Of a stretch of 64,000 nt of DNA, positions 10,936 through 49,271 are shown in pieces. The notes beneath the pieces are model-generated. The model was not told where the DNA came from and made no database searches. It saw only the letters and a program-made list of their open reading frames with translations. The translations under genes were made by a program, and so were the position numbers. Position 1 is the first letter of the stretch; every line of letters begins with the position of its first letter. The DNA comes from Venturia oleaginea (taxonomy: Eukaryota > Ascomycota > Dothideomycetes > Venturiales > Venturiaceae), in the NCBI GenBank assembly GCA_013176395.1, contig JABMLP010000037.1, forward strand, positions 62,001 through 126,000, given 5' to 3'.

Positions 10936-10946
10936 GTACTTAGATA
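10936..10946 (-). other. E1 primer-binding site, self-complementary to the LTR
   Basis: One base inside the 5' LTR lies the 11-mer TATCTAAGTAC (element orientation). It is an exact reverse complement of GTACTTAGATA inside the LTR, just downstream of the TATA box. Tf1-type elements prime reverse transcription with the folded 5' end of their own RNA using exactly such an 11-nt pairing. Confidence 0.8.
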
Positions 10947-10947
10947 A

Positions 10948-18303: not shown

Positions 18304-19731
18304 TCAAGTCAAAGGCAAAGCACACCCCAGATTAGTCAACGTCGGTCCCAACTTCGTCAACACAAAACTCAACGCATCGACAGTCGGCGTGATAACCCCG
18401 TTCAATCCAGACGGAATACTCTGCGCAGCAAGTTGATAAAGAAGACAACTAGCCGTAGCAGTGTTAGGCGCAGCGACCAATTTTCCATCTTGGATGAAAG
18501 CGCCGAAATTGAGCAGGTCGAAACCGCCGTTGCCCGTGGCGCCACCGAAGAGGACGGGGTGCTCGAGGTACATTGCCAAGATTTCGGCGGTGACGTCGTT
18601 GTTTGTGTACTAAACGTAAATTGTCAGAACGGTGGGCATTTGGAAAGGGGCTGGGAGATACGTACAGGAGCGACACGGTTGGTCCATCTTTCGGGGATCT
18701 TCTCTTGACCGTTGAAGGTGTAAGAGCCATCTGATTGTTGCTCGGCACCGAAGAAAGATGAAATGGTCGCTTCGTCTGGAGTGTAATTTGGTCCGGATGG
18801 CATGAGCTCGTAGAGGAAGGAAGCAGCCCCATAAAGTAGTAGGGAAAGTGGTCCGAAGTAAAAGTTCGGGTTCTCAGCAAGAGATTGGTTGTATCGTTGA
18901 GCGCGGTACAGAGAGAGGCCATCGCGGTCATAGTTGCCACCAGTTGTGGCATGCATCATTCTATATAACGTGCCGTTGAAGTTATAATTGTCACCATTGT
19001 GGGTGAAATAGTCATTTCGAGTAAGAGATGAGTCGGCCTCGAATTTGTTGTGACCATCCAAGCCGGGTTCAGACCCAGTCAATGCGGGGTTAACAGATGT
19101 GCGAGTTGTAGCATCGCATCCAATGGAAAGTTTCTCCGTAACAAGATCTCCATCAGTGAGCGTGAGACCAAGGAGCGCTAGAAGATTGGCAAGATCGTAA
19201 CCAACGTTGTAAACGTTTTGCTGAGCGTCGACAAGCTCATTATATGTCACGACACCATCGCGAGAAAGAAATCCGTGATTGGCGGCGGCATTGAGTCCTG
19301 GGCAAGGTCCTCGAATGTCCTATTAGGGTCAGTCATGTTTGCCATATTCGATAGAGGACAAGACAAACGTTTGGGCCAGGCGCAATGAACTGGTGGTCGG
19401 TATCACCATCGGCTGGGACTTTGTAGCCGCCTGTTGGTGATCAGTAAAAGATCAATTATCAGAGCCGTAAGACAGACGTACCTTTTCCTGTTCCTTGACT
19501 TCCATTCTTTGCACCGCCATATGGGTACCTATCGGAAATGCCAACAGCAGGAACGTGGTTGGCGTTGAAGGGGCAGGTGGCAGCACTGCCTGGGCCATTC
19601 GTGGTTTGTTGGCGTTTCGCTCTTCTAGCACCGCCGAAGAGACTGCTGTCCACGCCCTGCATCTCAGACACGAGTGGGAAAGAGAGGGCTCCCTCGGCTA
19701 GGATACTTGCGAAGAGGAGTGGGTACTTCAT
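18304..19731 (-). CDS. Secreted heme-thiolate peroxidase (chloroperoxidase/UPO family)
   Basis: The model is complement(join(18304..18609, 18666..19319, 19369..19430, 19482..19731)): four exons, phases consistent, 423 aa. The ATG at 19731 opens a signal peptide (MKYPLLFASILAEGALSFP). The peroxidase_2 fold uses a cysteine-ligated heme to oxygenate or halogenate substrates with hydrogen peroxide. The heme-ligand motif Pro109-Cys110-Pro111 lies in GPCPGLNAAANHGF. The Mg-site motif reads E198-A-D200-x-S202-x-x-R205, where EGD or EHD is usual. Length and the N-terminal propeptide-like stretch (GGARRAKRQQTTNG) fit long unspecific peroxygenases. No break is seen. It is convergent with the endoglucanase gene, both predicted to be exported. 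Confidence 0.9.
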
Positions 19732-21481: not shown

Positions 21482-21769
21482 TGTTAAGGGATGGAATCCT
21501 TCTCTCTAGCTTATCCATGACTGGATTTCCAATTGTTCTCTTGTTATTCTGCAAGCTGTCATGTTCTATTTTGCAAGCTGTCATGTTCTATTTTGCAAGC
21601 TGTCACGTTTCCATTTAAAGATACTTTCTAGAAGGATCTATTGTAAGAGGGGGATTATATATACGAGCTATCCTTCCTGTACTTACACTTTCTTCTCTGT
21701 ACTTAGATACTTGAAATATAAGCTGTCTTCCCTCACTTGCGAAACACCTTTGAGGGTTGAACTCTTACA
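21482..21769 (+). repeat. E2 5' LTR, 288 bp
   Basis: It runs TGTTAAGGG to CTCTTACA. It holds two full copies of the 22-bp U3 repeat against three in E1 and four in E5, which accounts for the length differences. TATATATA lies near 21658 and the 11-mer GTACTTAGATA near 21700. Confidence 0.94.
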
Positions 21770-21770
21770 T

Positions 21771-21781
21771 TATCTAAGTAC
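21771..21781 (+). other. E2 primer-binding site (self-primer type)
   Basis: TATCTAAGTAC lies one base after the LTR and pairs perfectly over 11 nt with GTACTTAGATA in the LTR. Confidence 0.8.
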
Positions 21782-22432
21782 CTCAATCTTACAAAGGAAG
21801 AAAGGCTCACAGAGAGCAAGCTCCAAAAAGGAATTTCAAGAAGAGGACACTTGTCCTAATCCAAGAAGCGAGGGCCAACCTCAAGGGCCAAACAGAAAGG
21901 AATTTCAAGAAGAGGACACTTGTCCTAACTCAAGAAGCAAGGGCCAACCTCAAAGGCCAACTTCAAGGGCCAACCTCAAGGGCCAAACAAAAAGGGAATT
22001 CAAGAGAATTCAAGCTGAGATTTTATAGAAGGTGCTAGAATCTCCAAGAAGCAAGGGCCAACCGAAAGGGCCAATCCAAAAAGGGAATTCAAGAGAATTC
22101 AAACTGAGATTTTCTAGAACGTGCTAGAATCTCCAAGAAGCAAGGGCAGGTCATCCTAAGACAGCGTAGTCTTAGGAGTTGAAGCTGTAATAAGCTGAGG
22201 AAAGAAAGAGCTAGGAAGAGAGATTTAATACACTTGGCCTTCACAGTCCCTGGGAGCTCTGTCCTTAGTAATAAGGATTGCAGAGCGGACTATAGTGTAA
22301 AAATCCTTCTGGGATTCTATAGTCACCTTCCTATACTAATAGGCATTGACTCTATACTGCCTAGCAAATCTCTAGAGTAGAGCCTAGGAGTGTGTATAGT
22401 AGTGCTCTCTATTATCTCTCATAGGTGAAAAT
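21782..22432 (+). other. E2 untranslated leader
   Basis: The leader holds degenerate GGCCAA-rich direct repeats (about 21830-22080), the palindrome-like CTAAGACAGCGTAGTCTTAG near 22156, and a pyrimidine/purine stretch up to the gag ATG. It is about 650 nt long. Confidence 0.65.
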
Positions 22433-23455
22433 ATGGAAGGAGAAGATCAGGAACAAAGAGTTCCTCAAGAACCCCAAGCCCTACAAGAAGCTATGGCAGC
22501 ATTACAACATCAACTAGCCATTCAGAACGATGCTATTACGCGTATTCTTACAATCTTGCCTAACACTACTCGCTCTGAGAACGTAGTAGAAGGACAAGAG
22601 ACTAAGAATTCACAAAAAGACAGAATACATAGGAAGAAAGCTGTACTTCCTAAGCTCCAAGAATTTGATGGCAAGCGTTCTGAATGGGCTCAGTGGTTTC
22701 AACAAGCAAGGATGAAGTTGGAGATAGACGCAGAATCTATAGGGGATAGTAGGAACCAATTTGCCTACATCTTCTCCTCTCTACGAGGCTCCGCAGCTCA
22801 GGCTACTCTGGCCTACGTAAAGACAGCTCCAGAGGAAGATAAAACGGGACAGAAATTGTTACAGTATATGGACAACTTCTATGGCGATCCAGTACAACAA
22901 CAAAGAGCTACTGTAAGCCTGTCCACAATCAAACAAAAAGAGAAAGAACCCTTCTTCTCTTTTCTTCCCCGTTTTGAAACCACTCTTGCTAATGCTGGAG
23001 GAATGACTTGGCCTGACGCTGTTAAAATTGCATTTCTACACAAAGCAATAAATCAAGAGCTGCGAAACCAGAGAATAGGCCAATCTCAGAGTACCTCCTA
23101 CCAGCAGTTTGTGTCCGATCTTTTGAATACAAGTATGCAAATCACTACAGCAAAGATGCTCTCTTCCTCAGAAGATAAGTTACGATTCAGAGATAAAGAG
23201 AAGTCTTTTAAAGATCTGAACGCTATGGACTGGGAGCCTACACGCGTAAACAAGTTAAAAATTTCGTCTAAAGCCTATGAATATAGGAAGGCAAATAACC
23301 TCTGCTTACGCTGTGGGAAGGCCGGCCATAGAATGAAAGACTGCTGGTTGGATACAGAGGTAGAAAGAGTCACGCAACTTGGTTCAAAAAGGGCCAAAGG
23401 AACCACTGAGGAGAATGAAGAAGTTGAAGAAGAGGACTACTCGGAAAAAGAGTAG
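22433..23455 (+). CDS. gag: E2 Gag, intact
   Basis: A 340-aa Gag identical by eye to those of E1 and E5, with zinc knuckle CLRCGKAGHRMKDC at 291-304 and an acidic C-terminus. The stop is TAG at 23453-23455. The pol frame opens at about 23428, one base back relative to gag, and a GGAAAAAG sequence sits just before the stop, so -1 slippage is the likely route to Pol. Because pol is split, this copy could supply Gag but not a complete Pol. Confidence 0.93.
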   Translation: MEGEDQEQRVPQEPQALQEAMAALQHQLAIQNDAITRILTILPNTTRSENVVEGQETKNSQKDRIHRKKAVLPKLQEFDGKRSEWAQWFQQARMKLEIDAESIGDSRNQFAYIFSSLRGSAAQATLAYVKTAPEEDKTGQKLLQYMDNFYGDPVQQQRATVSLSTIKQKEKEPFFSFLPRFETTLANAGGMTWPDAVKIAFLHKAINQELRNQRIGQSQSTSYQQFVSDLLNTSMQITTAKMLSSSEDKLRFRDKEKSFKDLNAMDWEPTRVNKLKISSKAYEYRKANNLCLRCGKAGHRMKDCWLDTEVERVTQLGSKRAKGTTEENEEVEEEDYSEKE

Positions 23456-23502
23456 CCTCTATCCAAAGTCGTGGATGGAGGCGTAGAGTAGATAGAGCAA
23501 AA

Positions 23503-24013
23503 TTGTCAAAGGAGTCAATTGAGAGAGTAAATAGTATTTTGAATTCGAACAAAGACACTGATTCACACCGTTCTCGGATAGAAAAAGAATGGGAGCAGTT
23601 CAGACCCAAGATGCTCTCCCGCCTTTTCTACACAAATACTATAGTGAACGATATATACTCTCTTAAAACTCTCCTTGATAATGGATCTAGCTGCTACGCA
23701 TCAATAAACGAGGAGAAAGCTTCGCAGATGGACCTTGAAGTACTCCCTATTAGTCCGCGTACTATAGGTGGAGTTCTTAAGGAAGAAGGACAGACCCAAG
23801 TGACAAAAATTGCGAAGTTGAACCTAGATTTAGGGGGACTTATATGCAACGCTTTTGCTTATATAGTCCCGGGACAATTTGAGGATCTTCTACTAGGCAG
23901 GCCTTTTCTCAAGGACACCAAAGCCGTTATCAATGAATCTAAAGGTACTCTTACCTTTGCAAACGGGATTAGCATTCGCGATGCTAAATTTGAAGACAAA
24001 CTTGATATACAAC
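23503..24013 (+). pseudogene. pol: E2 Pol, N-terminal part (protease) before the E3 insertion
   Basis: The first 170 codons of Pol hold the protease domain with D59-N-G-S and LLLGRPFLKD. The frame is truncated by E3, whose terminal bases add one residue and a stop. The reading frame extends upstream to about 23428 without an ATG, overlapping gag. The rest of Pol resumes at 35164. Confidence 0.93.
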
Positions 24014-24294
24014 TGTAAGAGTTCAACCCTCAAAGGTGTTTCGCAAGTGAGAGAAGACTGCTTGTATTTCAAAGTATCTAAGTACAAAGAAGAAAGTGTA
24101 GGTACAGGAAGAACAACTTGTATATATAATCTTCCAAGTAGGAAAAGGACATGCTGTCCTGAGAAGAGAATAGAAAGGAGTAGAAGCGCATGTGAAACGG
24201 TCCCTGAATAATCCCTGCTAGGCGCACGTGAGAACTACCAGGTAGTGCTAAGAATCCATCCAGGATAAGTTGAGAAAGGATCTATCCTTTGACA
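24014..24294 (-). repeat. E3 3' LTR, 281 bp
   Basis: In element orientation it reads TGTCAAAGGATAGATCC to CTCTTACA. U3 is distinct from family A, while TATA, R and U5 are closely similar. The sequence corresponds by eye to the E4 LTRs. Confidence 0.92.
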
Positions 24295-24430
24295 TTACCC
24301 TTCTTCTCCCCCGTTTCCGTTGGGGCGGTTTTGCTTTTTGTACGCCTAGGAGGACGTAGACTCGGTCCGTCGTTTTGAAAAACATCACCGTAGATACTTT
24401 CAAAGGTATCTAATGCGACAGTTTCTGTCG
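24283..24430 (-). pseudogene. E3 family-A-like Pol C-terminus fused after the integrase zinc finger
   Basis: The minus frame reads ALDTFESIYGDVFQNDGPSL, closely matching the family A Pol end ALDAFESAYGNVLENDGPIL. It is joined out of frame to the integrase zinc-finger segment, so the catalytic core and chromodomain are missing. The same junction is present in E4. Confidence 0.8.
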
Positions 24431-24727
24431 TTCGTACTTGGCCTTTTTGCAAAGAACACACTTTCCTATTTCCTTGAAAACTTCCTGTCGCATGCGCGGG
24501 AAGTAGAAGGTATTCTGAAGTCGTGAAAGGACAATCTCTGGTCGGCAATGACCATTGAGTGGAGATTCGTGTTGATGTAGGATGTACTGTTTCCTAAGGC
24601 TCGTGGGAAGATATACCAAGTTGTTGAAGAGGAGCAATCCGTCTTCAATACGGGTATTCTGATCTGCTGATTGAATGTAGCCTTGTACATCTCGATCCTT
24701 TGCTGCGCGTTCCTGACCTCTTGCCAA
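24410..24727 (-). pseudogene. E3 integrase zinc-binding remnant
   Basis: The frame holds LRKQYILHQHESPLNGHCRP and, further on, FKEIGKCVLCKKAKYERQ, an HHCC-type zinc-binding segment with CVLC as its second half. It ends at a stop where the deletion joins the family-A-like tail. No D,D35E core follows. Confidence 0.8.
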
Positions 24728-25704
24728 TAAGAGGACTTTCCTGTCTGAAGTGATGAGACTTGGTGCACAAGTGCATCACCTTCTGTCGGAACAAAGCGCG
24801 TTCGACTTTCTCTTTTTCTCCTGCCATGAAGTCTTCTCGTCGACTTAATGCATCGGCGTTAACGTTTTCCTTTCCTTTCTTGTAAAGGATATGGAAGTTG
24901 TAAAATGACAGTTCTTCTGACCATCTTAGTTGCCGTCGATTCAATTCCTTTGTCGTCGTGAAATTCCGCAGGTTCTTGTGATCGGAATACACGGTAATCT
25001 TGTGTTTCGCTCCTTCAAGATAATGCTTCCAGTACTTGAAGGCATCAACTATGGCCATGAGTTCCTTGTCTGAAGTGGAGTAGATGACTTCTGCTTTCAG
25101 GAATTTTCGTGCGTGGTAAGCTACTGGTCTTAGCTTTCCATCTGAATCAGGTTGGCTGAGACATGCTCCGAGGGCTCGATCGGACGCATCCGCCTCGACT
25201 GTGGCTGTTTTTTCTGAGTTAAACAGTTGCAGAATGGGTGGTGTTGTTAACCGTATCTTGAGTGCGTCAAAGGCCTTTTGCGCATGCTCGTTCCATTCCA
25301 AGGTAATCCCCTTCTTCATCAATCCCGTGAGGGGTTCTGCAACTTCGGAAAAGCTTTCGATGAATTGTCGATAATAATTCGCGAAGGCGTGAAATGACTG
25401 TACTCCTTTGACGTTCGAGGGTACCGGCCAATCGCGGACCTTCTGGTAAATTTCCGGGTCCATCTCAAGTCCATCTTGAGAGACAAAACATCCAACGAAC
25501 TTGATTCGTTGCTTGTGGAATTCGCTTTTCGAGGGTTTCAGCCGCAAGTTAAATATCTGTAGTGCGCGGAGGACGGTTCGAACGTGATTGGCGTGTTCTT
25601 CGAACGTTCGATAGTAAACCAAAATGTCATCCATATAAACAGACACAAACTTGTCTAAGTGCTCGCGAAGCACATTGTTCATATAGGCTTGCAGCGTCGC
25701 AGGG
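24645..25704 (-). pseudogene. E3 RT C-terminal half and RNase H
   Basis: It starts at the E4 insertion point within the RT and carries YMDDILVYY, the RT thumb and the RNase H with EADASDRALGACLSQ, TSDKELMAIVDAF and VYSDHKNLRNF. The RNase H frame is intact here, whereas E4 has two extra A in the equivalent A-run. It ends after ALSRREDF, with the reading frame lost before the integrase. Confidence 0.88.
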
Positions 25705-25985
25705 TGTCAAAGGATAGATCCTTTCTCAACTTATCCTGGATGGATTCTTAGCACTACCTGGTAGTTCTCACGTGCGCCTAGCAGGGATTATTCAGGGACC
25801 GTTTCACATGCGCTTCTACTCCTTTCTATTCTCTTCTCAGGACAGCATGTCCTTTTCCTACTTGGAAGATTATATATACAAGTTGTTCTTCCTGTACCTA
25901 CACTTTCTTCTTTGTACTTAGATACTTTGAAATACAAGCAGTCTTCTCTCACTTGCGAAACACCTTTGAGGGTTGAACTCTTACA
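25705..25985 (+). repeat. E4 5' LTR, 281 bp
   Basis: Begins TGTCAAAGGATAG, contains ATATATACAAG near 25872 and the 11-mer GTACTTAGATA near 25914, ends CTCTTACA. Matches 31047-31327 by eye along its whole length. Confidence 0.94.
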
Positions 25986-25986
25986 T

Positions 25987-25997
25987 TATCTAAGTAC
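25987..25997 (+). other. E4 primer-binding site (self-primer type)
   Basis: TATCTAAGTAC lies one base after the LTR, identical to the family A PBS, and is the exact reverse complement of GTACTTAGATA in the LTR. Confidence 0.78.
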
Positions 25998-26058
25998 CGC
26001 ACCAATACCTCTTGCTGACAGTAAGAGAGAGTCTCTGCAGCAATCGTCAGAGCAAAGA

Positions 26059-26146
26059 GAAAGCCCTCCATCGAGCGAGGTACCGAGAAAGCCCTCCATC
26101 GAGCGAGGCACTGAGAAAGCCCTCCATTGAGCGAGGCATTGAGAAA
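26059..26146 (+). repeat. 28-bp tandem repeat in E4 leader, about 3 copies
   Basis: Units of the form GAAAGCCCTCCATCGAGCGA plus GGTACCGA-type spacer. The same array in E3 (34696-34812 on minus) has about four copies. Confidence 0.7.
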
Positions 26147-26318
26147 GAGTTTGCTAGGTACCTCATAACCTAGGACGGATGCTACATCTTCTCATTGTGT
26201 AGTAATCACGAACGTCGAAGATTGAGAGTTGTTGAAACTTGTCCTTTGCGAAGGGATATCAACAACGTCCAAAGTGACACCCACAAGTTGAAAGTACTCC
26301 CAGGTCAATCCTGTTGGT

Positions 26319-26878
26319 GAGTCAAGGTCCTAAAGAGGACACCCAAGCCATTTCAGTACTCTCAGGAAGAGCCTGTAGAGTCAAGGTCCTAAAGAGGACA
26401 CCCAAGCCATTTTCAGTACTCTCAGGACGAGCCTGCAGAGTCAAGGTCCTAAAGAGGACACCCCAGCCACTTCAGTACTCTCAGGAAGAGCCTGTAGAGT
26501 CAAGGTCCTAAAGAGGACACCCAAGCCATTTTCAGTACTCTCAGGACGAGCCTGCAGAGTCAAGGTCCTAAAGAGGACACCCCAGCCATTTCAGTACTCT
26601 CAGGAAGAGCCTGTAGAGTCAAGGTCCTAAAGAGGACACCCAAGCCATTTTCAGTACTCTCAGGACGAGCCTGCAGAGTCAAGGTCCTAAAGAGGACACC
26701 CCAGCCATTTCAGTACTCTCAGGAAGAGCCTGTAGAGTCAAGGTCCTAAAGAGGACATCCAAGCCATTTTCAGTACTCTCAGGACGAGCCTGCAGAGTCA
26801 AGGTCCTAAAGAGAACACCCCAGCCATTTCAGTACTCTCAGGAAGAGCCTGTAGAGTCAAGGTCCTAAAGAGGACACC
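26319..26878 (+). repeat. 59/60-bp tandem repeat in E4 leader, 9 units plus a partial
   Basis: Units start GAGTCAAGGTCCTAAAGAGG and alternate between two variants: one with GCCATTTTCAGTACTCTCAG and GACGAGCCTGCA, the other with GCCATTTCAGTACTCTCAGG and AAGAGCCTGTA. The higher-order unit is therefore a dimer of about 119 bp. Confidence 0.85.
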
Positions 26879-27280
26879 TAACCCAAGAAGCAAGGGCCAA
26901 CCTCAAGGGCCAAACAAAAAGGAATTTCAAGAAGAGAACACTTGTCCTAACCCAAGAAGCAAGGGCCAACCTCAAAGACCAACCTCAAGAGCCAACCTCA
27001 AGGGCCAAACAAAAAGGGAATTCAAGAGAATTCAAGCTGAGATTTTCTAGAAGGTGCTAGAATCTCCAAGAAGCAAGGGCCAACTGTAAGGGCCAATCCA
27101 CAGTAAATTCTCGCAAAATTTACAAAGAGGAAATCAGAGGTCATCCTAAGACAGCGTAGTCTTAGGAGTTGAAGCTGTAATAAGCTGAGGAAAGAAAGAG
27201 TTAGGAAGAGAGATTCAATACCCTTGACCTTCATAGTCCCTAGGAGCTCTGTCCTTAGTAATAAGGGTTGCAGAGCAGAC
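26879..27280 (+). other. E4 leader segment homologous to family A leader
   Basis: The GGCCAA-rich repeats, GAATTCAAGAGAATTCAAGC, the palindrome around CTAAGACAGCGTAGTCTTAG and GTCCTTAGTAATAAGG all occur in the same order in E1, E2 and E5. The similarity stops abruptly near 27281, where gag-like sequence of another lineage begins. Confidence 0.78.
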
Positions 27281-28586
27281 TGTCAAGGATGAAATCAGTC
27301 GGAAGGAAATTCAGCCTCAGAGCCTGTACTCGATGATTGGAACGTCAATCAAGATTGATAACCGCCTATTCGAAAGAAAACTTCAGAGGAAGGGAGTTAG
27401 TTCTTATCGAGGACATGGAAACAACAGTCGTGCGAATATAGGTGTTTGAGTTGATTCATACGGACTGCAGCCAATGGAGCTCGACAAGATTCAGAGCGGT
27501 CCACGTGGATCCAAGAAAGGTACAGGTCAGAAAGCCCAAAAAGAACAACACTGGACGTTTCACGAATCAGGGACAACGATTCGGAAACTCACCCATGGGC
27601 TCAGAACACCTCAAGGCTTTACAATCCGATGCGTCAGTACCGCCAATCCACAACATACTGAGCTGGACGGCTTGTTATGAGGACGACTGCAAAGTACACC
27701 TATCCGAGAAGCAGAGCTCCGGATACTACCCTCGGGATAGAGGAGGTTACCAAGGTAACGGCAATGTCAAAGGACATCTCGCTATGATGAGTTCGTCATC
27801 TAGCTCACCCGGTCTTTATGGCACTCAGTTGGTATTGCCAAAAGCAGAGTATGGCACAAACCAATTCGGGGTTGAGAATACAATGGCTGCTGTCAAAGTT
27901 ATCAGCAGATACCCAAGCATGAGAAAGAATCCGGAACACGATCTTCACTGGATGATTCCATCGAACTGGTACAAAGTCAAAGAATGCCCACTGTGGGAGC
28001 ACAAGTCCGAGGAAGATCCAGGAGAACCAGATTGGGAATTCCACTGGTTCACGAAAAGGAAGTCAACAATACGACCCTCAGGAAGATCATGAAAATCCCA
28101 AACATCAGTACAGATGTACAGCACGTCCACCACAGACACTCACCTATGAATTGCTGCGAGTATGAGGAATGCGATTTACCTCAGCACCAGGAAATGAAAG
28201 ATCTTGGAGAAATACTCCAAGAGTTGCCAGCCATTTCCGGGAGTTGGTCTACACCAAACGAAAACGAATCTCTACAGTCTATGTCGGGCGACGACAGTGA
28301 GTCTACAGTAGAAGACAACTCCAACGAAGGAGAATCGAAGGAAGATCTAGAGTTTATGACCTTCCGGCTCTCACGTTTGACACGAGACGTTGAACGAGCA
28401 ATTGATCAGGACGATTCTCAGTGCAAAGACGTCTATCCAAATGCATGCCTTGACTTCACCTGCCCATACCATCCGAATGGGGCAAGGAACCTTCGACACC
28501 TTGTCCGACGATTGGACATCGCAGTCAAAACAAAGCAAGCACGCAAATGGCATGAGAATTCGGGAAACGAAGAGGATCAACAGTAG
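27281..28586 (+). pseudogene. E4 truncated Gag and Gag-Pol spacer
   Basis: The first part reads SLYSMIGTSIKIDNRLFERK, then a TGA, then YGLQPMELDKIQSG, which is the C-terminal end of a Ty3 Gag without its N-terminal region. In a second frame from 27442 it continues with HNILSWTACYEDDCKVHLSE, a spacer seen in Boty-like fungal Gypsy polyproteins (recalled, not searched). A one-base deletion relative to E3 near 28047 shifts the frame; it resumes at 27984-28586. No CCHC zinc knuckle was found. Confidence 0.72.
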
Positions 28587-28597
28587 AGAAGGCCCTG

Positions 28598-29500
28598 TTG
28601 AATCCTAATGAAGCGCCTCATTTTCTGAACAACCTTGGTACATCCAAGATGCTGGTCGAAGGAAAGATCGACGACGTACCAGCATGGGCCTTCATCGACA
28701 CTGGTGCCGATAGGAATCTTCTAAGCGAGAAATTGGTCGACGAATGGAAACTACCCGTACGGTCGAAACGGCATCCATATCCACTAACTATCGCTGATGG
28801 AAGACCTGTCAACTTCAATGGAGGCATAGTGATCTACGAAGCAGACATAATCTTGTGGATACAAGGGAGGAAAGAACAGATTGTTCTAGACGTCACGAAT
28901 ATTGGAGACTCGAATTTGATCCTTGGTCTGCCATGGCTTCGAACTCACAATCCGCATATCGACTGGAGAACATTGACGCTCACGTTCCCAGACCAACGAT
29001 ATCCCGTGCAGGCTAGCATGCGCGCTAGAACACGGACAGCACAAAGACCTTTGCAGAAAAGGCCTACACACGTTGAAGTGGCATACTGCTATCGTCTCCA
29101 GACAGAGGAGGATAGGTCAGTGTTCCAAATTCCCCATAGGTACCAGGAATTTGCAGAACTTTTTAAAGGGGAATCGATCGAAGATTCTCTTCCACCACAC
29201 CAACCATGGGATCATGAGATCAAGCTCAACAATAATGAACAACCAAAGAAGTTCAAGATCTACCCATTGAGGGAAGATCAGCTTGAAACCCTTCGTGAAT
29301 ATATCGACGATTTCACGAAGAAGAAGTTCATCCGGGAGTCGAAGTCACCCGCCGGATATTCAGTTTTCTACGTACCCAAGCCCGATGGTTCACAACGATT
29401 GTGTGTCGATTACCGACATCTAAATGAGATTTTGGTGAAGAATGCGTACACGCTGCCTTTAATCCAGGAGTTGAGGGACAGACTCCAAGGAGCCAGATGA
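28598..29500 (+). pseudogene. E4 protease and RT N-terminal half, ends at shared TGA
   Basis: A 300-aa frame contains the protease motif WAFIDTGADRNLLS and the start of RT (KKKFIRESKSPAGYSVFYVP, QRLCVDYRHLNEI). It stops at TGA 29498-29500 directly before [15 protein letters not shown], where an RT would normally continue. E3 has the same stop at the same codon (31464-31466), so the source copy was already broken. Confidence 0.9.
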
Positions 29501-30696
29501 TTCACGAAATTCGATATTCCTGCGGCTTTTCATCGAATTAGGATTAAGGAAGGTGACGAGTGGAAGATAGCATTCCGCACTCACCTTGAGCACTACGAAT
29601 ACCTTGTCATGCCCTTTGGTTTGACAAACGCCCCTGCGACGCTGCAAGCCTATATGAACAATGTGCTTCGCGAGCACTTAGACAAGTTTGTGTCTGTTTA
29701 TATGGATGACATTTTGGTTTACTATCATCGAACGTTCGAAGAACACGCCAATCACGTTCGAACCGTTCTCCGCGCACTACAGATATTTAACTTGCGGCTG
29801 AAACCCTCGAAAAGCGAATTCCACAAGCAACGAATCAAGTTCGTTGGATGTTTTGTCTCTCAAGATGGACTTGAGATGGACCCGGAAATTTACCAGAAGG
29901 TCCGCGATTGGCCGGTACCCTCGAACGTCAAAGGAGTACAGTCATTTCACGCCTTCGCGAATTATTATCGACAATTCATCGAAAGCTTTTCCGAAGTTGC
30001 AGAACCCCTCACGGGATTGATGAAGAAGGGGATTACCTTGGAATGGAACGAGCATGCGCAAAAGGCCTTTGACGCACTCAAGATACGGTTAACAATACCA
30101 CCCATTCTGCAACTGTTTAACTCAAAAAAAAAACAGCCACAGTCGAGGCGGATGCGTCCGATCGAGCCCTCGGAGCATGCCTCAGCCAACCCGATTCAGA
30201 TGGAAAGCTTAGACCAGTAGCTTACCACACACGAAAATTCCTGAAAGCAGAAGTCAACTACTCCACTTCAGACAAGGAACTCATGGCCATAGTTGATGCC
30301 TTCAAGCACTGGAAGCATTATCTTGAAGGAGCGAAACACAAGATTACCGTGTATTCCGATCACAAGAACCTGCGGAATTTCACGACGACAAAGGAATTGA
30401 ATCGACGGCAACTAAGATGGTCAGAAGAACTGTCATTTTACAACTTCCATATCCTTTACAAGAAAGGAAAGGAAAACGTTAACGCCGATGCATTAAGTCG
30501 ACGAGAAGACTTCATGGCAGGAGAAAAAGAGAAAGTCGAACGCGCTTTGTTCCGACAGAAGGTGATGCACTTGTGCACCAAGTCTCATCACTTCAGACAG
30601 GAAAGTCCTCTTATTGGCAAGAGGTCAGGAACGCGCAGCAAAGGATCGAGATGTACAAGGCTACATTCAATCAGCAGATCAGAATACCCGTATTGA
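29501..30696 (+). pseudogene. E4 RT C-terminal half and RNase H, frameshifted
   Basis: It carries [30 protein letters not shown] and the RT thumb. The A-run at 30124-30133 has ten A, two more than the equivalent A/G stretch in E3, shifting the RNase H frame just before the DAS motif. RNase H sequence continues in the other frame (KHKITVYSDHKNLRNF, NADALSRREDF). Confidence 0.88.
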
Positions 30697-30931
30697 AGAC
30701 GGATTGCTCCTCTTCAACAACTTGGTATATCTTCCCACGAGCCTTAGGAAACAGTACATCCTACATCAACACGAATCTCCACTCAATGGTTATTGCCGAC
30801 CAGAGATTGTCCTTTCACGACTTCAGAATACCTTCTACTTCCCGCGCATGCGACAGGAAGTTTTCAAGGAAATAGGAAAGTGTGTTCTTTGCAAAAAGGC
30901 CAAGTACGAACGACAGAAACTGTCGCATTAG
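30614..30931 (+). pseudogene. E4 integrase zinc-binding remnant
   Basis: It contains LRKQYILHQHESPLNGYCRP and KCVLCKKAKYERQKLSH followed by a stop. The D,D35E core is absent: within about 20 bases the sequence becomes the family-A-like Pol tail in a different frame. Confidence 0.82.
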
Positions 30932-31059
30932 ATACCTTTGAAAGTATCTACGGTGATGTTTTTCAAAACGACGGACCGAGTCTACGTCCTCCTAGGCGTA
31001 CAAAAAGCAAAACCGCCCCAACGGAAACGGGGGAGAAGAAGGGTAATGTCAAAGGATAG
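30920..31059 (+). pseudogene. E4 family-A-like Pol C-terminal tail
   Basis: Frame reading VALDTFESIYGDVFQNDGPS then a basic tail, matching the end of family A Pol. The purine-rich GGGGGAGAAGAAGGG just before the LTR serves as polypurine tract. Confidence 0.8.
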
Positions 31060-31327
31060 ATCCTTTCTCAACTTATCCTGGATGGATTCTTAGCACTACC
31101 TGGTAGTTCTCACGTGCGCCTAGCAGGGATTATTCAGGGACCGTTTCACATGCGCTTCTACTCCTTTCTATTCTCTTCTCAGGACAGCATGTCCTTTTCC
31201 TACTTGGAAGATTATATATACAAGTTGTTCTTCCTGTACCTACACTTTCTTCTTTGTACTTAGATACTTTGAAATACAAGCAGTCTTCTCTCACTTGCGA
31301 AACACCTTTGAGGGTTGAACTCTTACA
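31047..31327 (+). repeat. E4 3' LTR, 281 bp
   Basis: Matches the E4 5' LTR by eye; followed by TSD copy CAGGG (31328-31332). Confidence 0.94.
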
Positions 31328-31332
31328 CAGGG

Positions 31333-32363
31333 GCGTTTGTCAAACCAAAGGGCATGACAAGGTATACGTAGTGCTCAAGGTGAGTGCGGAATGCTGTCTT
31401 CCACTCGTCACCTTCCTTAATCCTAATTCGATGAAAAGCCGCAGGAATATCGAATTTCGTGAATCATCTGGCTCCTTGGAGTCTGTCCCTCAACTCCTGG
31501 ATTAAAGGCAGCGTGTACGCATTCTTCACCGAAATCTCATTTAGATGTCGGTAATCGACACACAATCGTTGTGAACCATCGGGCTTGGGTACGTAGAAAA
31601 CTGAATATCCGGCGGGTGACTTCGACTCCCGGATGAACTTCTTCGTGAAATCGTCGATATATTCACGAAGGGTTTCAAGCTGATCTTTCCTCAATGGGTA
31701 GATCTTGAACTTCTTTGGTTGTTCATTATTCTTGAGCTCGATCTCATAATCCCATGGTTGGTGTGGTGGAAGAGAATCTTCGATCGATTCCCCTTTAAAA
31801 AGTTCTGCAAATTCCTGGTACCCATGGGGAATTTGGAACACTGACCTATCCTCCTCTGTCTGGAGACGATAGCAGTATGCCACTTCAACGTGTGTAGGCC
31901 TTTTCCGCAAAGGTCTTTGTGCTGTCCGTGTTCTAGCGCGCATGCTAGCCTGCACGGGATATCGTTGGTCTGGGAACGTGAGCGTCAATGTTCTCCAGTC
32001 GATATGCGGATTGTGAGTTCGAAGCCATGGCAGACCAATGATCAAATCCGAGTCTCCAATATTCGTGACGTCTAGAACAATCTGTTCTTTCCTCCCTTGT
32101 ATCCACAAGATTATGTCTGCTTCGTAGATCACTATGCCTCCATTGAAGTTGACAGGTCTTCCATCAGCGATAGTTAGTGGATATGGATGCCGTTTCGACC
32201 GTACGGGTAGTTTCCATTCGTCGACCAATTTCTCGCTTAGAAGATTCCTATCGGCACCAGTGTCGATGAAGGCCCATGCTGGTACGTCGTCGATCTTTCC
32301 TTCGACCAGCATCTTGGATGTACCAAGGTTGTTCAGAAAATGAGGCGCTTCATTAGGATTCAA
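31333..32363 (-). pseudogene. E3 protease and RT N-terminal half
   Basis: The minus frame 32363-31464 mirrors E4: protease WAFIDTGADRNLLS, RT start, and the same TGA at 31464-31466. The RT palm start ([11 protein letters not shown] region) continues to 31333, where the E4 insertion begins; the remainder is at 25704 and below. E3 lacks one of the three Lys codons of the E4 KKKFIRES motif, so these are distinct copies. Confidence 0.9.
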
Positions 32364-32374
32364 CAGGGCCTTCT

Positions 32375-33517
32375 CTACTGTTGATCCTCCTCGTTTCCCG
32401 AATTCTCATGCCATTTGCGTGCTTGCTTTGTTTTGACTGCGATGTCCAATCGTCGGACAAGGTGTCGAAGGTTCCTTGCCCCATTCGGATGGTATGGGCA
32501 GGTGAAGTCAAGGCATGCATTTGGATGGACGTCTTTGCACTGAGAATCGTCCTGATCAATTGCTCGTTCAACGTCTCGTGTCAAACGTGAGAGCCGGAAG
32601 GTCATAAACTCTAGATCTTCCTTCGATTCTCCTTCGTTGGAGTTGTCTTCTACTGTAGACTCACTGTCGTCGCCCGACATAGTCTGTAGAGATTCGTTTT
32701 CGTTTGGTGTAGACCAACTCCCGGAAATGGCTGGCAACTCTTGGAGTATTTCTCCAAGGTCTTTCATTTCCTGGTGCTGAGGTAAATCGCATTCCTCGTA
32801 CTCGCAGCAATTCATAGGTGAGTGTCTGTGGTGGACGTGCTGTACATCTGTACTGATGTTTGGGATTTTCATGATCTTCCTGAGGGTCGTATTGTTGACT
32901 TCCTTTTCGTGAACCCAGTGGAATTCCCAATCTGGTTCTCCTGGGTCTTCCTCGGACTTGTGCTCCCACAGTGGGCATTCTTTGACTTTGTACCAGTTCG
33001 ATGGAATCATCCAGTGAAGATCGTGTTCCGGATTCTTTCTCATGCTTGGGTATCTACTGATAACTTTGACAGCAGCCATTGTATTCCCAACCCCGAATTG
33101 GTTTGTGCCATACTCTGCTTTTGGCAATACCAACTGAGTGCCATAAAGACCGGGTGAGCTAGATGACGAACTCATCATAGCGAGATGTCCTTTGACATTG
33201 CCGTTACCTTGGTAACCTCCTCTATCCCGAGGGTAGTATCCGGAGCTCTGCTTCTCGGAATATACTTTGCAGTCGTCCTCATAACAAGCCGTCCAGCTCA
33301 GTATGTTGTGGATTGGCGGTACTGACGCATCGGATTGTAAAGCCTTGAGGTGTTCTGAGCCCATGGGTGAGTTTCCGAATCGTTGTCCCTGATTCGTGAA
33401 ACGTCCAGTGTTGTTCTTTTTGGGCTTTCTGACCTGTAACTTTCTTGGATCCACGTGGACCGCTCTGAATCTTGTCGAGCTCCATTGGCTGCGGTCCGTA
33501 TGAATCAACTCAAACAC
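32375..33517 (-). pseudogene. E3 Gag-like/spacer ORF, 380 aa
   Basis: The frame that is broken in E4 is continuous here. It includes HNILSWTACYEDDCK, HDLHWMIPSNWYKVKECPLW and a C-terminal Cys-containing CLDFTCPYHPNGARNLRHLV. It opens directly after a TAG codon with GTG rather than ATG. It lacks a capsid-like N-terminus and a CCHC knuckle, so it is not a functional Gag by itself. Upstream minus sequence to about 33680 holds the IDNRLFERK Gag C-terminal remnant. Confidence 0.7.
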
Positions 33518-33679
33518 CTATATTCGCACGACTGTTGTTTCCATGTCCTCGATAAGAACTAACTCCCTTCCTCTGAAGTTTTCTTTCGAATAGGCGGTTA
33601 TCAATCTTGATTGACGTTCCAATCATCGAGTACAGGCTCTGAGGCTGAGTTTCCTTCCGACTGATTTCATCCTTGACAG

Positions 33680-34080
33680 TCTGCTCTGCAACCCTTATTA
33701 CTAAGGACGGAGCTCCTAGGGACTATGAAGGTCAAGGGTATTGAATCTCTCTTCCTAACTCTTTCTTTCCTCAGCTTATTACAGCTTCGACTCCTAAGAC
33801 TACGCTGTCTTAGGATGACCTCTGATTTCCTCTTTGTAAATTTTGCGAGAATTTACTGTGGATTGGCCCTTACAGTTGGCCCTTGCTTCTTGGAGATTCT
33901 AGCACCTTCTAGAAAATCTCAGCTTGAATTCTCTTGAATTTCCTTTTTGTTTGGCCCTTGAGGTTGGCTCTTGAGGTTGGTTTTTAAGGTTGGCCCTTGC
34001 TTCTTGGGTTAGGACAAGTGTTCTCTTCTTGAAATTCCTTTTTGTTTGGCCCTTGAGATTGGCCCTTGCTTCTTGGGTTA
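33680..34080 (-). other. E3 leader segment homologous to family A leader
   Basis: Same block as E4 26879-27280: GGCCAA repeats and the CTAAGACAGCGTAGTCTTAG palindrome, matching the leaders of E1, E2 and E5. Confidence 0.75.
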
Positions 34081-34081
34081 G

Positions 34082-34521
34082 GTGTCCTCTTTAGGACCTT
34101 GACTCTACAGGCTCTTCCTGAGAGTACTGAAGTGGCTGGGGTGTCCTCTTTAGGACCTTGACTCTGCAGGCTCGTCCTGAGAGTACTGAAAATGGCTTGG
34201 GTGTCCTCTTTAGGACCTTGACTCTACAGGCTCTTCCTGAGAGTACTGAAATGGCTGGGGTGTCCTCTTTAGGACCTTGACTCTGCAGGCTCGTCCTGAG
34301 AGTACTGAAAATGGCTTGGGTGTCCTCTTTAGGACCTTGACTCTACAGGCTCTTCCTGAGAGTACTGAAATGGCTGGGGTGTCCTCTTTAGGACCTTGAC
34401 TCTGCAGGCTCGTCCTGAGAGTACTGAAAATGGCTTGGGTGTCCTCTTTAGGACCTTGACTCTACAGGCTCTTCCTGAGAGTACTGAAATGGCTTGGGTG
34501 TCCTCTTTAGGACCTTGACTC
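34082..34521 (-). repeat. 59/60-bp tandem repeat in E3 leader, 7 units
   Basis: Same alternating unit as in E4 but with seven full units, two fewer. The difference equals one dimeric higher-order unit. Confidence 0.85.
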
Positions 34522-34695
34522 ACCAACAGGATTGACCTGGGAGTACTTTCAACTTGTGGGTGTCACTTTGGACGTTGTTGATATCCCTTCGCAAAGGACA
34601 AGTTTCAACAACTCTCAATCTTCGACGTTCGTGATTACTACACAATGAGAAGATGTAGCATCCGTCCTAGGTTATGAGGTACCTAGCAAACTCTT

Positions 34696-34812
34696 TCTCA
34701 ATGCCTCGCTCAATGGAGGGCTTTCTCAGTGCCTCGCTCGATGGAGGGCTTTCTCGGTACCTCACTCGATGGAGGGCTTTCTCGGTACCTCGCTCAATGG
34801 AAGGCTTTCTCT
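34696..34812 (-). repeat. 28-bp tandem repeat in E3 leader, about 4 copies
   Basis: Plus-strand units read CGCTCGATGGAGGGCTTTCT with GGTAC/GTGCC-type spacers. One more copy than in E4. Confidence 0.7.
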
Positions 34813-34870
34813 TTGCTCTGACGATTGCTGCAGAGACTCTCTCTTACTGTCAGCAAGAGGTATTGGTGCG

Positions 34871-34881
34871 GTACTTAGATA
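34871..34881 (-). other. E3 primer-binding site (self-primer type)
   Basis: Plus strand GTACTTAGATA, one base from the 5' LTR; element-sense TATCTAAGTAC pairs with the LTR 11-mer. Confidence 0.78.
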
Positions 34882-34882
34882 A

Positions 34883-35163
34883 TGTAAGAGTTCAACCCTC
34901 AAAGGTGTTTCGCAAGTGAGAGAAGACTGCTTGTATTTCAAAGTATCTAAGTACAAAGAAGAAAGTGTAGGTACAGGAAGAACAACTTGTATGTATAATC
35001 TTCCAAGTAGGAAAAGGACATGCTGTCCTGAGAAGAGAATAGAAAGGAGTAGAAGCGCATGTGAAACGGTCCCTGAATAATCCCTGCTAGGCGCACGTGA
35101 GAACTACCAGGTAGTGCTAAGAATCCATCCAGGATAAGTTGTCAAAGGATCTATCCTTTGACA
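34883..35163 (-). repeat. E3 5' LTR, 281 bp
   Basis: Differs from the E3 3' LTR near 34990 (TATGTATA against TATATATA) and near 35140 (GTTGTCAAAGG against GTTGAGAAAGG). Followed by TSD copy ACAAC. Confidence 0.93.
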
Positions 35164-38100
35164 ACAACAAGTAGCGCCCGTAAGATTCCACCGCCTTGTC
35201 ACTTCTACACTTGAGAAAATCAAAGACGCGTCTAGAGTATTTGCTGTTACTCTTCGAGATATTGATATTGCCTTGAAGCCGAAAGTCCCTTTGACAACAG
35301 AGCAAATACTGGAATTGCTACCTAAGAGGTTTCATAAGTACGCTGCTGTCTTTGATCCTAAAAGGGCCGAGAGACTACCACCGCATCGCCCTGGGATTGA
35401 TCACGAAATACCTATAGAAGAAGGAAAACCACTTCCTTGGGGACCTCTATATGGTATGGGTCGAGAACAACTCCTTGTTTTGCGAAGGACTCTTACAGAG
35501 CTACTAGATAAAGGCTTTATCCGAGAGAGTAAATCAGTTGCTGCGTCTCCAGTTCTCTTTGTGAAGAAACCAGGAGGGGGCTTACGCTTTTGCGTAGACT
35601 ACCGAGCCTTAAACGCAATTACTCGAAAGGATAGGTACCCGCTACCGTTAGTAAAAGAGACTTTACTAACCTTAGCTCGTGCTAAGTATCTTAGTAAGCT
35701 TGATGTAAATGCTGCCTTCCACAAGATTCGAATCGCAACGGGAGATGAGTTCAAAACTGCCTTTCGAACTAGATATGGTCTATTTGAATGGCTAGTTACT
35801 CCCTTTGGCTTAACCGGTGCACCTGCGTCTTTTCAACGGTATATAAACTATATCCTTCGACGATACCTAGACGAGTTCTGCTCAGCTTATCTAGACGATA
35901 TAGTAATATACTCTTCAAAGAACCTTAAAGACCATGAAGAAAAGACTGAAAAGATACTTCAAAGCTGCCTTAACGCTGGGTTATACCTTGATATTCGGAA
36001 GTGCGAGTTTAATACCAAACGAGTCAAGTATCTAGGCTTCGTTATAGATACTGAAACGGGCCTACACATGGATCCGGAGAAGATCAAAGCAATTAAAGAA
36101 TGGGAACGTCCTACTACTCTACGAGGAGTACGTGGCTTCCTAGGCTTTACAAACTTCTACCGTGACTTTGTAAAAGATAACTCAACAATAAGGGAGCCTC
36201 TGGTTCGCCTTACAAAGAAGAATACTCCATTTTTATGGGGAAAGGAGCAAGAAGAATCTTTTCAAAAACTTAAGGCAGAGTTTTGCAAAGAACCTGTCCT
36301 GTCTGCACTTGATGAAGATAAGCCTACGCGAGTAGAACCTGATGCTTCAGGCTGGGCTTCCGGAGCAGTACTTAGTCAAAAAGATGAGCTAGGTAACTGG
36401 AAACCATGTGCTTTCTTCTCTACTAAGCACTTGCCAGCCGAATGCAATTATGATATCCACGACAAAGAACTTATGGCTATAGTCAAAGCTCTAGTCCATT
36501 GGACTAGCGAGCTACTAAGCCTAAGTAAGCCATTCATTATCCTCACAGATCACAAGAACCTTGAGAAGTTTATGGTAAAAAGGGAACTAAATGAAAGGCA
36601 AATGAGATGGGCGCAGATACTAGCTAAGTTTAACTTCAAACTAGGCTATCGCCCAGGCTCTGAATCTGTAGTTCCAGACGCCTTAACTCGAAGGGATCAA
36701 GATCTCCCAAAGGATATTCAAGACCCAAGAATCGTTGAAAGAACTAGAACGTTATTACCTCCAAAGCTTTGGATTAACGTTCTAGAGGATAAGACTCCTG
36801 CAAGAGAAGAAGCTGCCCAAGAAAATGCTCAAGAAGTAGACAAAGAACCTATCCCCTTTATACAAAATCCCTTTCTCTCAGGTGATCTAAGGGATAGATG
36901 GGAAACTGCACTCGAAGGAGATCTAGACTACAGACGTATTTTCCAAAGCGTTCTAAAGCAAGATAGGCAGTTCCCATCTAAGCTAAAGGTTCCTACTTCT
37001 ATAGGAGATTGTAAAGTCGAAAATAACCAGCTCTACTATAGAGACCGAATCTGGTTGCCCTCCTACGAGCCTCTCTTAACAGGAGTAATTCAAGAAATAC
37101 ACGATTCAGTCCTATCAGGGCATCCTGGACGAGAAGCTACTATTGCTATTCTCTCCAGACAGTTCTACTGGCCGGGATTTGCTCAAGATATACGTCAGTT
37201 TATACGCAATTGTGACGTCTGCGGAAGAACTTCAGTCTGGCGAGACAAAAAGAAAGGTTTACTTAAACCTCTTCCTGTCCCTAGCCGTATCTGGCAAGAT
37301 ATTTCAGTAGACTTCATAGTCGAATTACCAGAGAGCCAAAGATGCACAAGACTCTGCGTTATTACTGACCGCTTGGGTAAAGGAACTATTCTGTTCCCAG
37401 TGCCTAAAGAACAGTTTGGAGCTGAAGGATTTGCAAAACTATTTATACAGAACTACGTAAGATTACACTGGCTTCCTAGATCTCTAGTCTCAGATAGGGA
37501 CACGCAGTTTGTTAATGCTTTCTGGAAAGAAGTTTGTCACCTTCTTAAGATAGAGAGAAGACTCTCTACAGCGTATCACCCTGAGACTGATGGATCTACG
37601 GAAAGAAGAAATCAAGAAGTTGAAGCCTATCTACGTAAGTTCTGTACATTTAGTCAGAACGACTGGGTCGAGCTCCTGCCTATTGCTCAAATATGCCTCG
37701 ATAATAGACCAAACCAAGCTACGGGCCTATCGCCTTTCTTCTTAACCCACGGTTATAACATTGAGCATATAGGAACTGTTGAAGCTCCCCAGGAAACCCC
37801 TAAGAATCCAAAAGAAAAAGCACAAGATCTTGTAGCAAAATTGAAGGACGCACAAGAATGGGCAGAAACGTCAATGGTATCAGCTCAGCAACAGCAAGAA
37901 TACTACTCTAATAGAGATCGTGCTCCGGCTGACTCTTTTAAAGTGGGAGACAAAGTCTGGCTCAACCTAAAGAACGTAAAAACCCTACGTCCTTGTAAGA
38001 AACTAGACTGGATTCATGGGAAGTATACAGTTACACGAGTTATCAACTCAATGTCTTACGAGCTTGATACACCCAGAGGAATCCACAACCGATTTCATAC

Positions 38101-38443
38101 GTCTTTACTTAGGAGAGCTGGCACAGATCCCCTACCTTCACAAATACAAGATAATACACAGCCGCCTCCTATAGTAACTGAACAAGGAGACGAGGAATAC
38201 GGTATCGAGGCTATTCTAGCCGCAAGATGGCGCCGGCGAGGTCGACAACAAACGCGAGAAGTCTTAGTTAAGTGGGTAGGCTACGTTGATCCTACGTGGG
38301 AACCCCTTAGCGAACTCCAACAAACTACAGCTCTGGACGCTTTTGAAAGTGCCTACGGCAACGTTCTTGAAAACGACGGACCTATACTACGCCCTCAGAG
38401 ACTACGCTCACATCGATCTACAAGAGAGGGGGGGAGGGGATAA
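35164..38443 (+). pseudogene. pol: E2 Pol, RT-RNase H-integrase-chromodomain part
   Basis: This is the continuation of E2 Pol after the nested insertion, open from 35164 through 38443 and lacking only the first 170 codons. It contains RT YLDD, RNase H DASGWASGAVL, the integrase H/H/C/C finger, D885, D946, E982 (full-length numbering) and the C-terminal chromodomain. Two residues differ from E1/E5 (FPVPKEQ for FPLPKEQ, LFIQNY for LFMQNY). The TAA stop at 38441-38443 abuts the 3' LTR. It has no start or promoter of its own. Confidence 0.93.
38423..38440 (+). other. E2 polypurine tract
   Basis: A purine run AGAGAGGGGGGGAGGGGA lies directly before TAA and the LTR, within the last Pol codons. It would prime plus-strand synthesis. 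The same tract lies beside the 3' LTRs of E1 and E5. Confidence 0.8.
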
Positions 38444-38731
38444 TGTTAAGGGATGGAATCCTTCTCTCTAGCTTATCCATGACTGGATTTCCAATTGTTC
38501 TCTTGTTATTCTGCAAGCTGTCATGTTCTATTTTGCAAGCTGTCATGTTCTATTTTGCAAGCTGTCACGTTTCCATTTAAAGATACTTTCTAGAAGGATC
38601 TATTGTAAGAGGGGGATTATATATACGAGCTATCCTTCCTGTACTTACACTTTCTTCTCTGTACTTAGATACTTGAAATATAAGCTGTCTTCCCTCACTT
38701 GCGAAACACCTTTGAGGGTTGAACTCTTACA
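38444..38731 (+). repeat. E2 3' LTR, 288 bp
   Basis: Same length and, by eye, the same sequence as the 5' LTR (21482-21769). Followed by TSD copy TCCAA. Confidence 0.94.
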
Positions 38732-43420: not shown

Positions 43421-43752
43421 TGTAAGAGTTCAACCCTCAAAGGTGTTTCGCAAGTGAGGGAAGACAGCTTATATTTCAAGTATCTAAGTACAGAGAAGAA
43501 AGTGTAAGTACAGGAAGGATAGCTAGTATATATAATCCTCCTCTTACAATAGATCCTTCTAGAAAGTATCTTTAAATGGAAACGTGACAGCTTGCAAAAT
43601 AGAACATGGCAGCTTGCGAAATAGAACATGACAGCTTGCAAAATAGAACATGACAGCTTGCAAAATAGAACATGACAGCTTGCAGAATAACAAGAGAACA
43701 ATTGGAAATCCAGTCATGGATAAGCTAGAGAGAAGGATTCCATCCCTTAACA
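43421..43752 (-). repeat. E5 3' LTR, 332 bp
   Basis: Four full 22-bp units plus a partial lie at about 43585-43695. Exactly 44 bp longer than the E2 LTR. Confidence 0.93.
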
Positions 43753-47538: not shown

Positions 47539-47585
47539 TTTTGCTCTATCTACTCTACGCCTCCATCCACGACTTTGGATAGAGG

Positions 47586-49259: not shown

Positions 49260-49270
49260 GTACTTAGATA
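49260..49270 (-). other. E5 primer-binding site (self-primer type)
   Basis: Plus strand GTACTTAGATA, one base from the 5' LTR; pairs over 11 nt with the LTR copy of the same 11-mer. Confidence 0.8.
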
Positions 49271-49271
49271 A

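Follow-up and report, generated by a model that had tools for sequence, protein, structure and literature searches.

Long terminal repeat (LTR) retrotransposons that are chimeric, or that are mobilized in trans, are already known, among them BARE-2, Athila, the Tf1/Tf2 hybrids and the partner elements of wheat. Family B, described here from a 64,000-nucleotide window of the Venturia oleaginea genome (contig JABMLP010000037.1, positions 62,001 to 126,000; G000:C31:62001-126000 in our numbering of this 46-Mb genome), is as far as we know an unusually complete case in which two clades are joined. BARE-2 of barley is a recombinant element without Gag function that reportedly relies on Gag supplied by a relative, and BARE-1 and BARE-2 are close relatives within Ty1/copia. 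Like BARE-2, family B is a recombinant without Gag function that is presumed to depend on a relative; unlike BARE-2, it joins two Ty3/gypsy clades (∼34% amino acid identity in Pol), lacks both capsid and integrase core, and has also lost its reverse transcriptase (RT) in most of the copies that we read.

In Arabidopsis, recombination between distant families gave rise to new Athila lineages, and entire non-autonomous families multiplied (PMC2410132). The plant Athila coding copies are described there as being under purifying selection, unlike family B, in which most copies read share a stop codon in RT and show weak or no constraint since. For the autonomous and non-autonomous RLC_Angela pairs of wheat, and for RLG_Cereba and RLG_Quinta, the helper was inferred from motifs shared in the LTR, primer-binding site (PBS) and polypurine tract, and exchange of LTRs between partners was proposed (PMC9744471, PMC11302176). 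Quinta is the proposed provider of Gag (PMC9744471, PMC11302176), whereas family B has no Gag domain match, and, unlike the situation described for the wheat partners, relatives of the B core donor are also present with open frames. Tf1/Tf2 and Tosmo of fission yeasts are self-primed chromoviruses whose hybrids are explained by transfer of strong-stop DNA between RNAs; those exchanges are between full-length elements of one clade (PMC10085805), whereas here they link an autonomous family with a non-autonomous chimera. In crapaud of Podospora, a filamentous ascomycete, the LTR variants lie in the 5′ half while R and U5 are conserved, 7 of 150 full copies have discordant LTR pairs, and strand-transfer recombination was proposed; the exchange is within one family, and the passages cited describe no chimeric parasite, unlike the families A and B considered below (PMC10787394). 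Our literature searches turned up no fungal two-clade chimeric non-autonomous element, a result that does not establish its absence from print. As far as we know, three things are unusual here: two clades are joined in a fungus that also holds relatives of both donors, an RT stop has been inherited by B copies that have identical or near-identical LTRs, and R-U5 and leader sequence has passed between B and its likely helper. One genome holds relatives of the core donor, the family that gave the ends, the chimera and later recombinants. Therefore the junctions can be mapped to a few bases, movement after loss of RT can be demonstrated, and the likely helper can be named from sequence exchange, beyond resemblance alone. 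In a fungus, it thereby becomes possible to test by what means non-autonomous LTR elements keep up with the elements that help them.

Family B is a real chimera: its 5′ part (R-U5, PBS and leader) and its 3′ tail come from the lineage of family A, and its core comes from the lineage of family C and its subfamily C2. As a whole, the best explanation is that family B is, very probably, a non-autonomous chimeric LTR retrotransposon with family A as its helper. Elements in the window were delimited by self-comparison and by reading of the flanks. The two family B elements, and the parts of the one that we use as reference (E4), are as follows.

25705-31327, + strand: family B element E4, 5623 bp; LTRs 25705-25985 and 31047-31327 (281 bp, identical); target site duplication (TSD) CAGGG; nested in E3
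24014-35163, - strand: family B element E3, own pieces 24014-25704 and 31328-35163, split by E4; TSD ACAAC; nested in family A element A2
25914-25985, + strand: R-U5 of E4, from the inferred RNA start; the first 11 nucleotides are the self-primer
25987-25997, + strand: 11-nucleotide PBS of E4, complementary to the self-primer in R; A-type pair
25998-27280, + strand: A-related leader of E4, with ∼60-bp tandem repeats at 26293-26885
27277-27284, + strand: left junction, A leader to C gag spacer
27283-30918, + strand: core of E4, of family C descent; holds a gag spacer (no match to capsid or CCHC), protease, RT, RNase H and integrase zinc finger
29498-29500, + strand: in-frame TGA stop in RT
30918-30937, + strand: right junction, where the C integrase finger gives way to the A pol tail
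30937-31046, + strand: A-like pol tail and polypurine tract

The R-U5 and PBS of E4 (138 bp) are 91-94% identical to family A, and the R-U5 alone matches that of element A1 at 72 of 72 positions, bearing out a first-pass annotation of this DNA, in which E3 and E4 were said to share the A-type 11-nucleotide PBS and a very similar R-U5. The same annotation put the shared leader at about 400 bp. Indeed, 26868-27281 is 84-85% identical to A, and the ∼870 bp 5′ of 26868 have no clear match in the three A elements of the window (A1-A3). However, two A copies elsewhere in the genome, L034 and L038, hold the first ∼620 nucleotides of this upstream B leader, so that the A-related leader is longer than 400 bp and the idea of a third foreign source for 25998-26868, suggested by its absence from A1-A3, was rejected. 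The repeats at 26293-26885 number about ten, of 60 bp each, and alternate to form ∼119-bp dimers; E4-like copies vary in length (5505, 5623 and 5861 bp). At the 3′ end, E4 is 80% identical to A over 55 bp (30937-30991). The claim of a shared Pol tail thus holds for the DNA but not for the protein, since this stretch is out of frame with B pol and is not translated in it; in the B copy L035, the pol frame stops 13 nucleotides past the C match. The A-like tail persists in family B as nucleic acid, not as a protein fusion.

The interior had been assigned, from about 27281 to 30925, to another Ty3 lineage, and this was confirmed in nearly the same coordinates: 27283-30918 had no match to family A DNA at the threshold used, and E4 is 70% identical to the C element L030 over E4 positions 1579-2488 (gag spacer) and 90% identical over 2635-5214 (protease, RT and RNase H), with no match to L030 outside the core. 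DNA identity of the core is 90-91% to C and 92-95% to C2. At the protein level, the second open reading frame of L035 has 92.8% identity with C pol and 33.5% with A pol, and a tree of 44 Pol rows, which contained no named Tf1/sushi reference, separates A from B plus C by a branch with SH-aLRT support of 100. Different rates of change in place of chimerism were rejected, because the non-coding leader and R-U5 are 84-100% A-like while Pol is only ∼34% A-like by protein, a pattern for which rates cannot account. Family B is also not a large retrotransposon derivative (LARD), which is defined by a large internal region without coding sequence, since protease, RT and RNase H sequence is retained.

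The donor lineage is represented by L030, an element of 7033 bp with two identical 470-bp LTRs, a gag frame of 692 aa with capsid-type and CCHC matches above the Pfam cut-off, and a pol frame of 1214 aa. Above the cut-off in its pol product are RT, RNase H, the integrase finger and, at the C-terminus of integrase as in the Tf1/sushi chromoviruses, a chromodomain (PF00385, 50.6 bits against a cut-off of 25.1); protease and integrase core (30.8 of 32.6 bits) fall just under it. The more diverged subfamily C2 (L041-L043) has integrase sequence in all three members and C-type LTR sequence (77-80%) in L041 and L042. A protein search of the genome with the RT piece of E4, in which 150 of 654 candidates were scored, also listed a second group beside B, mostly 86-95% identical and with frames of up to 1214 aa, to which L030 belongs. 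Another Ty3 family on the same list has a frame of 1373 aa and ∼46% identity with the B RT piece; its many copies score equally and are spread over many contigs. In L030, a 244-aa frame without Pfam match (L030:6755-7489) overlaps the end of pol and the 3′ LTR.

Both switches are abrupt, as had been claimed, and lie near 27280 and at 30918-30937. On the left, the A match ends at E4 position 1577 and the C match starts at 1579, with a shared word of ∼3 nucleotides; on the right, similarity to C runs as far as 5214 and similarity to A resumes at about 5233, the word ACAA being shared. The left junction maps ∼140 nucleotides upstream of the first ATG of the A gag frame (A1 position 907) and the right junction ∼40 codons ahead of the end of A pol. 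Thus, family B dropped all of A gag and nearly all of A pol and retained the A ends. We fetched 35 hand-picked regions from the genome, among them a set of 22 B loci, 20 chosen for a match to the core from the left junction onward and L035 and L037 chosen likewise; three partial copies (L032, L036 and L039, later finds or fragments) were excluded from this set. The left junction is found in 22 of the 22 loci (in L028 over 105 of 200 bases only) and the right junction in 18. Two places with 97-98% B-like gag spacer and long RT frames (C12:1225155 and C34:90740) were considered as autonomous B elements and rejected: fetched as L035 and L037, they proved to be a B subfamily with the same junctions. 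In the genome searches 40 candidates were scored each, of 83 for the core, 81 for the tail, 57 for the leader, 152 for A gag and 268 for the C LTR, and copy numbers from them are lower bounds; with a C integrase query, all 28 of 28 candidates were scored and six places read.

The functions that remain in family B are best seen in L035, with its uninterrupted frames of 370 and 790 aa. By Pfam it retains protease, RT, RNase H and the integrase zinc finger, and no capsid, CCHC, integrase-core or chromodomain match was found at an E value of 0.1. Most copies read have lost RT as well. E3, E4 and the 22 loci make up 24 B copies; the codon at 29498-29500 is present in 22 of them (L017 and L025 lack the stretch), and 17 of these 22 have the TGA stop; a sense codon is found at this site in the other 5, in a B-like fragment within L031 and in the three C copies read. 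Most B copies read descend from one that had the RT stop. Eight stop-bearing copies are flanked by distinct, perfect 5-bp TSDs (E3 ACAAC, E4 CAGGG, L009 ATACC, L010 GTAGT, L011 ATATA, L012 GGTTT, L015 CTTTC and L016 CCGTC), which argues for movement in trans after the loss of RT, unless the stop is read through. Even with readthrough, proteins would be needed in trans, since capsid and integrase are missing from family B in any case. We infer from these sequences that family B moves in trans. Ratios of nonsynonymous to synonymous change (dN/dS) in the RT-containing stretch are 0.13 between L035 and C30, 0.41-0.74 between L035 and six stop-bearing copies, and 0.60 between E4 and L014, and E4 and L021 differ by 0 synonymous and 12 nonsynonymous changes.

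Family A is the likely helper. The window holds three A elements, together with a solo LTR of family B.

5186-11258, - strand: family A element A1; TSD GGTGG; A U3 with B-type R-U5; gag and pol frames open
21482-38731, + strand: family A element A2, in which E3 and, within it, E4 are nested; TSD TCCAA (ends from flanks); A-type R-U5
43421-49603, - strand: family A element A3; TSD GTCAG; gag and pol frames open; A-type R-U5
59316-59596, - strand: family B solo LTR with the same sequence as the LTR of E4; TSD ATTGG; B U3 and B-type R

A1 and A3 have an intact gag frame of 350 aa and an intact pol frame of 1286 aa. In A1, RT, RNase H, integrase finger and a Gag-like PNMA match score above the Pfam cut-offs, and CCHC, integrase core and chromodomain score under them; the chromodomain (PF00385) reaches 24.3 bits in A1 pol (E 3e-5) and 24.7 in the A2 piece. 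The exact 11-nucleotide pair of self-primer and PBS is common to A and B, whereas C has a different exact 11-nucleotide pair. A self-primer in R that matches an 11-nucleotide PBS is a trait of the Tf1/sushi chromoviruses, to which families A and C may belong. Shuffled LTRs contained the required self-primer word in 3 (A1) and 2 of 20000 trials. The self-primer/PBS duplex forms in the minimum-energy folds of A1, A2, E4 and C (z-scores of fold energy -1.4, -3.0, -2.3 and -3.5, respectively, the A1 fold being unremarkable overall); the RNA start in R is an inferred position for A, B and C.

Families A and B have also exchanged R-U5. A1 and A3 differ in R-U5 (95.8% identity) and hardly in U3, and among 11 copies read, one R-U5 type is found in A1, E3, E4, L037 and L038, the other in A2, A3, L015, L023 and L024, and a one-base variant of the former in L035. 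The native R type of each family would be that of its majority and, for B, that of the subfamily L035/L037. On this assignment, a pattern search of the genome found all four LTR combinations at exact sites: 118 with A U3 and A R, 61 with A U3 and B R, 31 with B U3 and A R and 71 with B U3 and B R, compared to 0 with reversed-pattern controls; LTRs whose U3 differs from these patterns, as in L034, L035 and L038, fall outside the counts. Diagnostic sites place the breakpoint between U3 and R-U5 within ∼15 nucleotides around the inferred RNA start at the U3/R border. Each LTR type occurs in a TSD-flanked element with both LTRs alike: A/A in A2 and A3, A/B in A1, B/A in L015 and B/B in E4. In A1, a B-type R-U5 lies between an A U3 and an A leader, the arrangement that would be expected if minus-strand strong-stop DNA from B RNA jumped to A RNA. 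The A copies L034 (TSD CACAG; gag and pol frames open) and L038 (TSD GCTAG) have a B-type R-U5 followed by ∼620 nucleotides of B-type (E3-like) leader, a product to be expected of strand transfer between RNAs packaged together. This exchange, and the RT stop that transposed copies share, lend weight to the first-pass description of family B as a carrier with family A cis signals.

We propose that B RNA would be packaged in family A particles by way of its A-type leader, primed by the A-type 11-nucleotide pair, copied by A RT and inserted by A integrase. Two template switches, in particles that held both A and C RNAs, would have produced the chimera itself, and RNAs of A and B would have kept sharing particles after it formed, because R-U5 cassettes and leader sequence moved between the two families. 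More tentatively, and with our doubts somewhat outweighing our confidence, we suggest that parasite and helper draw their cis signals from a common pool, that R-U5 cassettes travel in both directions during strand transfer and that the packaging and priming signals of the helper may evolve through the parasite; the B R-U5 type is present on about a third of the exactly matched family A LTR sites (61/179), and two A copies have the B leader too. If this were true, the parasite would stay recognizable and escape would be hard.

Family B could instead descend, by deletion, from an autonomous lineage in which this leader, core and tail were together from the start, in which case family A later took its ends from B. 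Both R-U5 types do occur in both families, some A ends may well stem from B-type elements, and L035 and L037 keep their frames of 370 and 790 aa open. However, of the six integrase-bearing relatives of the core that were fetched (L029-L031 and L041-L043), all but L043, whose ends lie outside what was read, show C-type LTR sequence, and in none of the six does an A-like leader or tail occupy the place that it would have in an element; furthermore, the B tail, a homologue of the last part of A pol, is not in frame with B pol, as expected for a graft. An autonomous element with the leader, core and tail of B, which the first-pass annotation had named as the finding that would refute its reading, was looked for and not found among these six loci; because several genome searches scored part of their candidates, its absence is not proof. 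We regard such a descent as highly improbable. A chimera made at the level of DNA, through nested insertion with deletions or through break repair involving A and C copies, is rather unlikely but deserves more weight: the shared words of ∼3 and ∼4 nucleotides are also compatible with end joining, and many nested insertions and rearranged LTR pairs occur in this DNA, but no C LTR match lies inside E4, and the later exchange between A and B breaks at the U3/R border, the site of strand transfer in reverse transcription. The template-switching origin claimed at first pass fits the 3-4-nucleotide junction words and the later A-B exchange, and it stands beside this DNA-level route rather than as established. 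It is very unlikely that family C, the core donor, mobilizes B; some B copies encode C-type protease, RT and RNase H, and C copies with open gag and pol frames exist, but the self-primer/PBS pair, leader and R-U5 of B are those of A and not of C, and the R-U5 exchange is seen with A, the single C LTR scanned being without the A-type self-primer.

Several observations weigh against our reading of family B as a chimera moved by family A. The U3 (promoter) of B is not close to that of A (58-59% on forced alignment), so the earlier picture of B sitting inside family A ends holds for R-U5, PBS, leader and tail but not for U3. The RT piece of E4, taken alone, clusters with the C copy L029 and not with other B copies (support 93); in a ∼200-bp window of the core (∼1600-1800 of the aligned stretch), L029 is 99% like E4 while other C copies are 91%, and the placement probably reflects local exchange of this patch between B and C. 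The five copies with a sense codon at the RT-stop site, and the 790-aa protease-RT-RNase H frame kept open in L035 and L037, suggest that early B may have supplied its own RT. Raised dN/dS is suggestive at best, and weak evidence for lost constraint: the controls within C gave 0.25 (L029-L030) and 0.71 (L030-L031, on only 7 changes). Some fetched copies resemble segmental duplicates (L018/L019, L021/L022 and L026/L027), so that 17 stop-bearing copies do not equal 17 independent events. Finally, L014 carries B-type and A-type R in one element, L019 has two LTR types, both with unequal flanks, and an LTR pair on C14, ∼5.4 kb apart, has different R types; thus, ectopic recombination or conversion also occurs. 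If the four LTR combinations were due to gene conversion among genomic copies, as the discordant pairs of L014 and L019 would allow, they would say nothing about co-packaging. We consider this unlikely, given that the TSD-flanked elements A1, A2, A3, E4 and L015 have matching U3/R-U5 combinations in both LTRs and that 14 same-strand pairs of A-U3/B-R sites (28 of the 61) lie 5.76-5.85 kb apart, like the LTRs of a full A element.

Some further arrangements were noted. The E3 LTRs (34883-35163 and 24014-24294) are 98.9% identical. Four copies of B LTR plus leader at an exact spacing of 1828 bp form a tandem array of partial elements at G000:C34:199275-205165, and segments that contain A and B sequence are tandemly repeated at G000:C34:147463-183395 (∼10.0 kb) and G000:C11:1118266-1142959 (∼10.5 kb). 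Within the window, a segment of MULE-type transposase is present in inverted copies (55096-56600 and 62494-64000, 97% identical), and a Tc1/Tc3-type transposase frame lies at 60961-61929. A peroxygenase-type frame (Peroxidase_2) at 18624-19319 has named homologues that top out at 78-83% identity (a Quercus suber label at 83%, a plant name and perhaps a contaminant, Mollisia at 80%, Saccharata at 79% and Diplocarpon at 78%); unnamed matches are closer, at 93, 89 and 84%.

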